A DNA stretch of 64,000 nucleotides from Bacteroidales bacterium. Lineage in GTDB: Bacteria; Bacteroidota; Bacteroidia; Bacteroidales; P3. The translations under genes and the position numbers were made by a program. The stretch covers positions 62,001 to 126,000 of the forward strand of contig JAUNHX010000001.1 of NCBI GenBank assembly GCA_030523765.1, written 5' to 3'. Positions within the stretch are counted from its first letter, which is position 1; each line of letters begins with the position of its first letter. Shown piece by piece: positions 30,121-33,014 of this stretch. Below the pieces are notes generated by a model that saw only the letters and a list, made by a program, of their open reading frames with translations, ran no database searches and was not told the DNA's origin.

Positions 30121-30149
30121 TTGTATATATAAAAAAATTAGTATTTTTG
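30121..30149 (+). promoter_or_regulatory. Promoter of the tryptophanase leader
   Basis: TTG at 30121 and TATTTTTG at 30142-30149 (TAnnTTTG) are separated by 18 bp, the normal Bacteroidota spacing. Transcription should begin near 30155, just upstream of a short open reading frame. Confidence 0.7.
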
Positions 30150-30161
30150 CAGCAACTAATT

Positions 30162-30242
30162 ATGAGAAAGGCAAATTCAAACATTAGTGCTAACAATCTC
30201 TTTTTGAACATAAAAAAGAGAGATGTATTCCCCGAACAGTAG
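30162..30242 (+). CDS. Putative 26-residue leader peptide upstream of tnaA
   Basis: A short open reading frame starts 13 bp after the promoter -7 box and encodes 26 residues ending NIKKRDVFPEQ. Its TAG stop (30240-30242) falls in the loop of a terminator hairpin. The arrangement promoter, leader peptide, terminator, catabolic gene is that of an attenuator in which ribosome position decides read-through. Unlike TnaC of Escherichia coli, the peptide contains no Trp. It does carry Asp at position 21 and Pro at position 24, as TnaC does. Whether it is translated or stalls ribosomes is not known. Confidence 0.5.
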   Translation: MRKANSNISANNLFLNIKKRDVFPEQ

Positions 30243-30261
30243 TTCGGCGGGGTATTTTTTT
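30230..30261 (+). terminator. Terminator hairpin in the tnaA leader (attenuator)
   Basis: CCGAAC 30232-30237 pairs with GTTCGG 30242-30247 around an AGTA loop, the stem continues with CC/GG after a bulge, and seven T follow (30255-30261). The 3' arm GGCGGG (30246-30251) is also complementary to CCCGCC at 30311-30316, which could form an alternative structure. Confidence 0.75.
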
Positions 30262-30399
30262 ACCTTCTATTGCTTTCTTTTCTCTCCCTCAGGAGCATTA
30301 AATAAACTGACCCGCCCTAATCCGCAACGGGAATCATATTGTAAACAATTCATTGTTAAACAATCAAATAATAATAATCACCTTTAAATATTTTGTAAT

Positions 30400-31776
30400 A
30401 TGGAATTACCTTTTGCAGAATCGTGGAAAATCAAAATGGTTGAACCCATTAAGAAATCCACCCGCGAACAACGCGAAAAATGGCTCGAAGAGGCCCATCA
30501 GAACATCTTCATGCTTAAGAGCGACTATGTCTACATCGACCTCCTTACCGATAGCGGTACTGGTGCAATGAGCGACCGTCAGTGGAGCGCCATGATGATG
30601 GGCGACGAAAGCTATGGCGGAGCCCGTTCGTTCTACCACATGAAAGATACCATCACCGACATTACTGGTTTCGAGTATGTTATCCCTACCCACCAGGGTC
30701 GTGCAGCAGAGAACGTGTTGTTCAGCTACCTTGTAAAACCTGGCCAAATCATCCCTGGCAACGCCCACTTCGATACTACCAAAGGTCATATCGAGAGCCG
30801 CAAAGCCTTCGCTATTGACGTCACCGTTCCCGAAGCCTACGACACCCAACTCGAAGTCCCCTTCAAAGGTAATGTAAGTCTCGAGAAACTCGAGAAAGTG
30901 CTGAAAGAGAACCAGGGCAACGTCCCCTTCATGGTCCTCACCGTCACCAACAATACCGTTGGCGGCCAGCCCGTTAGCATGCAAAACATTCGCGAAACCT
31001 GTGAACTCTGCCACAAATACGGAGTACCCGTAAATATCGATAGCGCCCGCTTCATCGAGAATGCCTACTTCATCAAAACACGTGAAGAAGGCTATGCCGA
31101 TAAGACCCTGCGCGAGATCTGCAAAGAGATGTTCTCCTATGCTGATAGCATGACCATGAGTGCCAAGAAAGACGGTCTAGTTAACATGGGTGGTTTCATC
31201 GCTACCAACAAGAAAGAATGGTACGAAGGTGCCAAACTCTTCTGCATCCCCTTCGAAGGCTTCCTTACCTATGGTGGTATGAATGGCCGCGATATGGATG
31301 CTCTCGCTGTTGGTTTGAAAGAGAACATCGAGTTCGAGATGGTAGAAACCCGTATCAAACAGGTTCATTACCTCGCAGCCAAACTCGATGAGTATGGTAT
31401 CCCCTATCAGCGTCCTGCTGGTGGTCATGCCATCTTCGTTGATGCCGACAAGATCCTCACCCAAATCCCCAAAGAGGAATTCCCCGCACAGACCCTCACC
31501 TGCGAACTCTACCTCGAGGCAGGTATCCGCGCATGCGAGATTGGCTACGTGCTGGCCGACCGCGACCCCGTAACTCGCGAGAACCGCTTTGGTGGCAACG
31601 ACTTCGTACGTCTCTGCATCCCTCGTCGTGTTTACACCAACAACCACATGGATGTTATCGCAGCTGCTTTGAAGAACGTCTACGATCGCCGCAACCAAAT
31701 CACCCGTGGTCTAGAAATCACTTGGGAAGCCGAGCTGATGCGCCACTTCACCTGCCAGTTCAAACGTCTCAAATAA
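30400..31776 (+). CDS. tnaA: Tryptophanase (tryptophan indole-lyase)
   Basis: The 458-residue PLP enzyme splits tryptophan into indole, pyruvate and ammonia. Family motifs include YIDLLTDSGTGAMSDRQW, the substrate-binding PTHQGRAAEN, IDSARF near the pyridine nitrogen and the Schiff-base Lys257 in TMSAKKDGLVNMGGF. The N-terminus MELPFAESWKIKMVEP matches my recollection of Porphyromonas tryptophanase better than tyrosine phenol-lyase, the close alternative. The gene has its own promoter, leader peptide and terminator, and a strong hairpin follows, so it forms a single-gene unit. No tryptophan permease gene is next to it in this window. Confidence 0.9.
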   Translation: MELPFAESWKIKMVEPIKKSTREQREKWLEEAHQNIFMLKSDYVYIDLLTDSGTGAMSDRQWSAMMMGDESYGGARSFYHMKDTITDITGFEYVIPTHQGRAAENVLFSYLVKPGQIIPGNAHFDTTKGHIESRKAFAIDVTVPEAYDTQLEVPFKGNVSLEKLEKVLKENQGNVPFMVLTVTNNTVGGQPVSMQNIRETCELCHKYGVPVNIDSARFIENAYFIKTREEGYADKTLREICKEMFSYADSMTMSAKKDGLVNMGGFIATNKKEWYEGAKLFCIPFEGFLTYGGMNGRDMDALAVGLKENIEFEMVETRIKQVHYLAAKLDEYGIPYQRPAGGHAIFVDADKILTQIPKEEFPAQTLTCELYLEAGIRACEIGYVLADRDPVTRENRFGGNDFVRLCIPRRVYTNNHMDVIAAALKNVYDRRNQITRGLEITWEAELMRHFTCQFKRLK

Positions 31777-31798: not shown

Positions 31799-31838
31799 AA
31801 TAAGGGAGGCATCCATGCGGATGCCTCCCTTATTATTT
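31799..31838 (+). terminator. Terminator after tnaA
   Basis: A perfect 16-bp stem (31799-31814 with 31819-31834) with a 4-nt loop is followed by the AT-rich ATTTATT. It lies 22 bp after the stop codon. Confidence 0.85.
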
Positions 31839-31951: not shown

Positions 31952-32800
31952 TTATAGCGAGCTATAGGGTACCGACCAAGTGTCACCCTTACTCATATCA
32001 CCTGTCGTAAGTCCTCGTTTAAGCCATTTCATACGCTGGGCCGAGGTACCATGAGTGAACGATTCGGGGGTTACCGAACCGCGAGCGCTACGCTGCAGAT
32101 AGTCATCGCCAATCTTCTGAGCCGCATTGATAGCCTCTTCCAGATCGCCATCCTCCAAACTACCAAAAGTCTTGTTCTCATAATAGCCCCACACACCAGC
32201 AATAAAGTCGGCCTGCAATTCAATACGCACACTTGTCTTATTGGCCTCCTCTTGGCTCTGCTTAGCCATCTTGGCATGTGCCTGATCGAGGACTCCCAAC
32301 TGATGCTGCACATGATGACCCACCTCATGGGCAATCACATAAGCATTAGCAAAATCGCCTGCAGCACCAAATTTAGACGACAACTCGTTGAAGAAATCGA
32401 GATCCAGATAAATACACTGATCGGCAGAGCAATAGAACGGACCCATCGAAGAAGAGGCGTTACCGCAGCCACTCTGCACGCTTCTATGGAAAAGAACCAT
32501 TTTAGGAGCCACATAGGTCTTACCCATCTTCTTAAATTCCGAAGTCCATATATCCTCTGTGCTAGCCAATATTTGCGAAGCAAATACCTTGAAGGCCTCC
32601 TCCTCTTCGGTAGGAGTATAAGCCTCGCCCTGAGTAGTCTGGCTGCCCAGCTGCTGAATTACCTCCTGCGGGTTGCCACCCAAAAGGAGCGCAATAAGAC
32701 CTGCTATGATAACACCGCCTATACTAAGACCAGCTACTTTTCCGCCCTTACTCCGGCGGTCTTCCACGTTGTTGCTTTGACGTCTTCCTGAAAGATCCAT
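31952..32800 (-). CDS. Neutral zinc metallopeptidase (YpfJ family)
   Basis: The start at 32800 (MDLSGRRQSNNVEDRRSKGG) is the family start; the in-frame extension to 32923 is made of the adjacent transposable element. The 282-residue protein has a membrane segment near residues 20-40 (AGLSIGGVIIAGLIALLLGG) and the zinc-binding VIAHEVGHHVQ (HExxH), with QADFIAG and GTSAQRMKWLKRG further on. The YpfJ family is of unknown substrate. A TTAA-flanked element begins 11 bp upstream of the start codon, so the native promoter has been displaced and expression may now depend on the element. Confidence 0.93.
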   Translation of the reverse strand: MDLSGRRQSNNVEDRRSKGGKVAGLSIGGVIIAGLIALLLGGNPQEVIQQLGSQTTQGEAYTPTEEEEAFKVFASQILASTEDIWTSEFKKMGKTYVAPKMVLFHRSVQSGCGNASSSMGPFYCSADQCIYLDLDFFNELSSKFGAAGDFANAYVIAHEVGHHVQHQLGVLDQAHAKMAKQSQEEANKTSVRIELQADFIAGVWGYYENKTFGSLEDGDLEEAINAAQKIGDDYLQRSARGSVTPESFTHGTSAQRMKWLKRGLTTGDMSKGDTWSVPYSSL

Positions 32801-32815
32801 AATAGAATAATTTAA

Positions 32816-33014
32816 GGTGGGTTCTACAAATACATTTCTTGCGATTTTGGAGGGATTGTCGAACAGATTGCTATGCAAAGCAAAGGTGTATAGCAGATTA
32901 TGCAACCAAATGACAAGCAGCAAGATATAGACAAGACTTCCAAGCGTTGAAAAGATTCCTATTACCCATTAGCATTACTTTTTTTACTTAATCGGTGAAT
33001 TTATAGGATCCACC
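32816..33014 (-). mobile_element. Full-length MITE-like element (199 bp) in front of the metallopeptidase gene
   Basis: Flanked by TTAA at 32812-32815 and 33015-33018, this copy is inverted relative to the one at 29771-29965 and aligns with it end to end. Its right end, read on the minus strand, is GGTGGATCCTATAAATTCA then CCGATTAAG. It has no coding capacity. The distance of 11 bp between the duplicated TTAA and the start codon at 32800 puts it inside the 5' leader of the metallopeptidase gene. Confidence 0.85.

Follow-up and report, generated by a model that had tools for sequence, protein, structure and literature searches.

A conserved C-terminal motif in short frames upstream of Bacteroidales tryptophanase genes: a candidate family of ribosome-arresting leader peptides

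The window, a stretch of 64,000 nucleotides from a 2.4 Mb Bacteroidales genome, carries a tnaA gene whose predicted product is, judged by its sequence, a full tryptophanase, the enzyme that converts tryptophan to indole. Its closest relatives in named records belong to uncultured Bacteroidales, mainly from the ruminant gut; members of the order are well-known gut indole producers. On the forward strand, tnaA is preceded in order by a promoter, a 26-codon frame that contains no Trp, and a hairpin with a U-run (Table 1). All three elements had been proposed in an initial annotation of the locus, and all three are read directly from the sequence. The TTG and TATTTTTG elements match the Bacteroidota -33/-7 consensus; a simple scan, which does not cover Bacteroidota promoters, found no sigma-70-type promoter on this strand. 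Simple scanning also missed the terminator at 30225-30255, probably owing to a bulge in its stem, and Rfam families gave no match in the window at gathering scores. Past tnaA, the next long frame in the window (31952-32923) lies on the opposite strand, so that no tnaB permease gene follows in the same direction, unlike in the TnaC operon, from which the locus also differs in having an intrinsic hairpin.

Table 1 Features of the tnaA locus, in window coordinates
Feature	Position	Strand	Basis or detail
Bacteroidota-type promoter	30121..30149	+	TTG 30121-30123, -7 box TATTTTTG 30142-30149; read from sequence
Leader ORF, 26 codons, MRKANSNISANNLFLNIKKRDVFPEQ	30162..30242	+	ATG 30162, stop TAG 30240-30242
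Peptide motif FLNIKKRDVF ([FY]-x-N-[ILV]-K-x-R-D-x-[FY])	30201..30230	+	Codon table of 156 distinct motif sequences; profile searches
Asp21 codon of the window leader	30222-30224	+	Inside motif FLNIKKRDVF
Intrinsic-terminator-like hairpin	30225..30255	+	Starts immediately 3' of the Asp codon; loop holds the leader stop; -16 kcal/mol
U-run 3' of the hairpin, seven U	30255..30261	+	Sequence
Pyrimidine-rich tract 3' of the hairpin, possible Rho-loading stretch	30263..30290	+	C/T at 26 of 30 positions in 30262-30291
CCCGCC, possible pairing partner of the hairpin 3' arm (unsupported)	30311..30316	+	z -1.3
tnaA, tryptophanase, 458 aa	30400..31776	+	NCBIfam NF053783 TphnTnaApg1401, E 7.8e-268, above cut-off
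Inverted repeat 3' of tnaA, probable transcript end	31804..31829	+	By eye

The peptide end of the window leader recurs upstream of Bacteroidales tnaA genes as [FY]-x-N-[ILV]-K-x-R-D-x-[FY], with synonymous codons varying freely. Lys, Arg, Asp and the last F/Y were demanded by the search term and are fixed by construction, so for these residues only the codon freedom counts: across 156 distinct motif sequences, Lys is spelled AAG in 85 and AAA in 71, Asp is GAC in 78 and GAT in 78, Arg is spelled by all six codons, and the final aromatic residue is F in 113 and Y in 43. Two positions that the term did not require are also kept, namely Asn in 148 of the 156 (AAT 75, AAC 73) and the first aromatic residue in 153 (F 87, Y 66). 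The diverged leaders L222, L256, L270, L300, L302 and L305 have Asn replaced and retain K-x-R-D-x-[FY]. Reverse strands, shuffled sequences and genomes outside the order served as controls. Within 260 nt 5' of tnaA, the motif was present on the forward strand at 46 of 75 loci of set A and 70 of 107 loci of set C; the reverse strand of the same stretches gave 0 in both sets, and shuffles gave means of 0 and 0.15, respectively. All 45 distinct leaders of the window's group and 98 of 114 others have a TAnnTTTG box 30-150 nt 5' of the Asp codon, compared with shuffle means of 3.8 of 46 and 19 of 127 (duplicates still included).

Because the peptide end is conserved while its synonymous codons vary freely, the leader frame is not a chance one. 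Selection at the protein level acts on this peptide end, which lies in cis to tnaA and is associated with genes of tryptophan and aromatic catabolism. Residue-level conservation at the C-terminus with free synonymous codons, the pattern by which ribosome-arresting leader peptides are recognized, is thus what was found. The comparison with relatives that the initial annotation had put forward as its own decisive test came out in favor of the frame, which shows codon-level conservation upstream of tnaA. Such strong residue conservation could also be expected of a small protein acting in trans; the concentration of conservation mostly in the last ten or so residues, together with a frame that stays near tnaA in cis, makes that reading very improbable.

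The position of the motif within the frame bears on where a ribosome would stop. Start codons were assigned by rule, as the first in-frame ATG after the box, and on this basis Asp has a median residue number of 21 (5-95%, 15-25) and is exactly residue 21 in 33 of 159 leader records; some of our counts are of records, since sets B and C overlap and their 175 leader records represent 161 distinct leaders. Past x-[FY] the tail runs to 0-11 residues, most commonly 2, 0 or 3. A constrained distance from the start combined with a free distance to the stop would place arrest inside the frame: because the stop-to-motif distance varies, arrest probably does not occur at the stop codon, unlike in TnaC. 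Since nothing beyond the final aromatic residue is kept, we think that this residue has either just been added to the chain or still sits in the A site.

Trp occurs anywhere in the leader in 6 of 159 records, with no Trp codon conserved, and Pro is C-terminal in 1 of 159. These counts bear on the earlier suggestion that the window leader, though devoid of Trp, shares Asp21 and Pro24 with TnaC. The Asp holds up as a member of the motif and the Pro does not, and the resemblance cannot be read as homology. They bear equally on a classical starvation attenuator that reads charged tRNA levels. The window has the usual order of leader, hairpin and U-run for such a device; against it, the run of regulated amino-acid codons that marks a trpL-type attenuator is missing from the Trp-free window leader, Trp is rare in the others, and what is kept is a whole motif with free synonymous codons, not a run of one codon. 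Largely contradicted already, this is the least probable of the readings considered.

The distribution of the leader was followed through several samples, in which kinship makes locus counts exceed counts of independent events and genomes of the order may be incomplete. A first survey of 80 tnaA loci in named genome records yielded 76 usable upstream stretches, that is, 75 loci and the window (L006, L020, L042, L045 and L068 had no usable stretch; L050 and L309 were not anchored in later counts). In this survey of the window's group, a short frame with N[IVL]K.[RK][DE] was present in 50 of the 76 stretches and absent from 26. The 26 leaderless stretches lacked the motif up to 1500 nt upstream as well; by eye, some have a promoter box near tnaA, and in others tnaA lies behind another gene. 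At L011, L012, L015, L025, L048, L059 and other loci of set A, tnaA directly follows, as though on one transcript, a gene whose repeated YxNG/WxFY-type segments look MORN-like by eye.

A DNA pattern search blind to tnaA in 295 genomes of the order returned 130 matches by our count, in 116 genomes. Because the reversed pattern yielded about 63 matches (counted by hand), the pattern alone is weak, and the setting, a short frame and tnaA, carries the weight. Among the 90 of 130 matches examined, a selection that passed over, among others, sites carrying Ser in place of Arg, tnaA was the first downstream gene in 62, at 59-95% identity to that of the window. Searching the same 295 genomes for tnaA gave a match in 219, above cut-off in 183, and 150 places were listed. 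Set C (109 loci, comprising the 30 best tnaA matches and mostly tnaA places without a DNA-pattern match) contained 66 leaders by the stricter term and 72 by the other, a fraction that understates the order because the set was composed mostly of places that the pattern had not matched.

Profile A1 (15 columns) was built from leaders located 5' of tnaA, and its matches include part of this input. It found one match each in 135 of the 295 order genomes at E<=0.0072, where about two would be expected by chance. Of the 135, 127 lie directly before tnaA, 102 by coordinates and 25 by reading of fetched loci (several cut by contig ends, and the gene at L329 read in two pieces). The other eight comprise two at the head of a CoA ligase and tnaA operon, two before an indolepyruvate oxidoreductase gene, two before other genes and two at contig ends. 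Among the first-drawn genomes of the order, 54 of 120 had a profile match, equivalent to 53 of 119 families as two of those genomes share a family. Viewed from the 150 listed tnaA places, 102 have a match directly upstream, 2 have the leader at the operon head, and at 10 more, reading showed a leader that is weak or diverged (G034, G048, G073, G084, G147, G158, G159, G161, G260 and G269); no leader was seen at 33, and 3 were not judgeable (G116, G126 and G163).

At the same threshold, the profile matched 0 of 293 genomes of the phylum outside Bacteroidales; the phylum sample of 296 includes the window's own genome, the only one to match, and two more of the order. Eight more genomes of this sample have weaker matches, at 0.009-0.042, which is fewer than expected by chance, and 30 tnaA genes from outside the order all lacked the motif upstream. 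Among the order and phylum genomes sampled, the leader is found in Bacteroidales only, where it is present in many gut and rumen members.

Some leaders are followed first by genes other than tnaA. At L090 (G089) and L091 (G191), the leader stands before an indolepyruvate:ferredoxin oxidoreductase alpha-like (iorA-like) gene (TIGR03336, E 1.3e-89, below the model cut-off, for L090; the L091 gene is 89% identical), which suggests that the sensor has moved within aromatic catabolism. At L330 (G090) and L331 (G227), it stands first in what looks like an operon, in which tnaA comes after an ADP-forming acetate-CoA ligase-like gene (TIGR02717, E 9.1e-92 for a piece of 420 residues, below cut-off). 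Indolepyruvate oxidoreductase and ADP-forming CoA ligases function in aromatic amino-acid fermentation, common to Trp, Phe and Tyr. The leader is also kept in two genomes without a tnaA match (L117/L342 in G263, L323 in G047), before a caprolactamase/hydantoinase-like gene, in a case that comes from a 79% complete genome, and, 566 nt away, before a thiolase-like gene; redeployment, loss of tnaA or assembly may account for them.

The arrest peptide could be real and yet sense something other than tryptophan: a different aromatic amino acid, indole or a keto acid, or translation stress in general. The fermentation functions behind the iorA-like and CoA ligase-like cases, two of each, fit such a ligand, as does a motif that requires F/Y, not W, at two positions. 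The substrate of tryptophanase is tryptophan, however, and the great majority of matches lie directly before its gene; a sensor of general stress, moreover, should not be bound to one gene. We regard a ligand other than tryptophan as unlikely, although it deserves consideration. By analogy with TnaC, free L-tryptophan would be the simplest inducer.

The RNA features vary more than the peptide. In the window, the predicted fold of 30221-30262 has an energy of -16 kcal/mol (z -3.7), equalled by 0 of 200 shuffles. The stop codon had been placed in the hairpin loop; its first two bases are indeed there (loop AGTA, 30238-30241), and its third closes the loop. Counted from the first base of the Asp codon, the 5' arm starts 3 nt downstream, which puts the start of the arm inside the footprint of a ribosome stopped there. 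The proposal that a ribosome close to the end of the frame would cover the 5' arm and so block the hairpin thus agrees with the geometry. Blocking the 5' arm yields a fold that uses CCCGCC at 30311-30316 (-16.2 kcal/mol), so the alternative pairing with the hairpin 3' arm foreseen in the initial annotation is possible in position and energy, but its significance falls away, the stretch not being unusually stable (z -1.3).

A hairpin and U-run between leader and gene, which define an intrinsic-terminator attenuator, are present in the window; elsewhere, terminator-like hairpins (threshold -8 kcal/mol, shuffle background about 5%) were found in 21/45 distinct leaders of the window's group and 10/116 others, in total 31/161. 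In 18 of 34 hairpin-bearing leader records, the 5' arm starts no more than 19 nt from the Asp codon, measured from its first base. A conserved terminator for the whole family was rejected, and one output mechanism does not fit all leaders, because the frequency outside the window's group is near background. The conserved element is the peptide end, not the hairpin. Overall, the initial annotation is partly supported: of its new tryptophanase attenuator in Bacteroidota, the conserved leader stands, within Bacteroidales only, and the hairpin is present in only part of the leaders. Five records and one partial record of one sub-group share a common hairpin after the leader stop, which is not independent proof of structure because compensatory changes were found in 0 of 16 pairs. 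In set A, L021, L043 and L074 have two successive hairpins after the leader stop, the second followed by a U-rich run (by eye); an antiterminator/terminator pair is possible.

Leaders of the wider order are instead followed by pyrimidines. In 114 distinct leaders, the C+T fraction of the 35 nt past the leader stop averages 0.62; counted over leader records it is 0.61, against 0.49 at matched distance in leaderless tnaA genes (n=35; Mann-Whitney p 2.7e-9, not corrected for kinship). Such richness after the stop would suit Rho, as in E. coli. Because hairpins occur in the window's group and pyrimidine tracts elsewhere, and because the window carries both the hairpin and the tract at 30263-30290, we propose one sensor with exchangeable terminators.

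Control through tnaA translation or mRNA stability, in which the start would be opened or the RNA protected, would dispense with transcription termination altogether. It would accommodate the 130 of 161 distinct leaders without a terminator hairpin and the closeness of the motif to tnaA (41-290 nt, median 89, in the 102 coordinate-based cases). Yet the 20 nt 5' of tnaA are A-rich and nearly G-free, so that little seems to need opening at the start, and the strong window hairpin is followed by seven U. Such control seems to us a minority prospect, and we keep termination as the preferred output.

Taken together, these observations favor, at a probability of roughly two in three, a new family of ribosome-arresting leader peptides, probably Trp-sensing, that would hold a ribosome at K-x-R-D-x-[FY] and so keep a terminator, in the window a hairpin, from acting. 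We infer the arrest, the ligand, the direction of control and the kind of terminator, the ligand only from the regulated genes. In the proposed pathway, the short upstream frame would encode the arresting leader, for which we use the working name IKxRD leader. At high levels of the inducer, most likely free L-tryptophan, the growing peptide would halt the ribosome that makes it once the chain is about 21-24 residues long and K-x-R-D-x-[FY] lies at its peptidyl-transferase end. In the window, the stopped ribosome would cover the 5' arm of the terminator hairpin; because the arm is covered, the terminator could not form and tnaA would be transcribed. Without inducer, the ribosome would finish and leave, the hairpin would form, and transcription would stop around position 30261. 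Most other leaders of the order lack such a hairpin; there, the stopped ribosome would conceal a pyrimidine-rich tract suited to Rho loading.

Several known systems offer comparison. In ErmBL-type leaders, arrest hangs on a few residues beside the peptidyl-transferase centre and depends on a drug; residues and output differ from those of the Bacteroidales leader, and on general background we set the two apart. The closest parallel is TnaC of E. coli and other Gammaproteobacteria: both leaders are short, at about 24 residues, and stand immediately before tnaA, and both would be followed by a termination site at or just past the leader end, with control by tryptophan through the nascent chain probably common to the two. 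TnaC is described as requiring W12, D16, I19 and P24 and as arresting at its own stop codon, keeping Rho off (PMC10941005, PMC8429421). The Bacteroidales leader has no sequence relation to it, lacks Trp12 and the Pro24 at the stop, and seemingly arrests inside the frame at K-x-R-D-x-[FY], with a variable tail. It is not TnaC by class, because it fails on W and P, and may work like TnaC. With SpeFL and other metabolite-sensing arrest peptides, it would share probable arrest and a free metabolite as co-inducer, while motif, ligand, gene and lineage differ (PMC8429421 in part, and general background).

In the literature searched, which leaves most subscription papers and all preprints outside its coverage, no account of the leader was found, also by motif spellings, and none of Bacteroidales tryptophanase control. 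Short frames reminiscent of attenuating leader peptides, with BT_4401 named, are reported in long 5' UTRs of Bacteroides thetaiotaomicron; the word 'tryptophan' is absent from the main text of that paper (PMC7366714). The part covered of a 2026 paper on Porphyromonas gingivalis tnaA never uses the term 'leader' and asks for the promoter and start site to be mapped. No such Bacteroidales leader is described in the parts covered of PMC8537960, PMC7577114, PMC6426650, PMC10234816 and PMC11610557, and PMC10219788 contains none of 'Bacteroid', 'tnaC' and 'tryptophan'.

We lean, with less assurance than for arrest itself, toward a broader account in which Bacteroidales evolved their own Trp-sensing arrest peptide independently of TnaC: a portable ten-residue sensor, [FY]xN[ILV]KxRDx[FY], that would arrest in-frame, not at the stop, act through lineage-specific terminators (an intrinsic hairpin in part of the rumen lineages, a Rho-type tract elsewhere) and have moved to iorA-like and ADP-forming CoA ligase-like genes. 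A conserved sensor in about half of the sampled order genomes (135/295) would explain tryptophanase control. It would be a second, unrelated solution to sensing tryptophan in the ribosome tunnel, beside TnaC; if so, the tunnel has been recruited at least twice for the same metabolite and the same gene. Bacteroidota ribosomes start translation without Shine-Dalgarno pairing, and the leader would be a further example of control by the nascent chain in such a setting. The invariant K, R, D and F/Y make the sensor directly testable by mutation and structure.

Some matches to the motif were set aside as look-alikes. L083, a second match within the window's own genome, was read as chance: its 11-residue frame overlaps, out of frame, the 3' end of a 218-aa ORF (PAP2-like by eye). 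The leader counts exclude matches that fall within long frames, that precede an rpsB-like gene (L110) or a response-regulator-like gene (L101), or that resemble these. An identical 21-base stretch encoding LNVKNRD occurs in three genomes, at L110, at L102 and at one place in G029; at L110 it lies 5' of the rpsB-like gene (by eye) and is not obviously a leader. L101 (G190) and L103 (G088) share a short frame, MNNYKLNVKERDD(T/S)IFQNV, a look-alike of the motif in another setting, which at L101 precedes the response-regulator-like gene (by eye).
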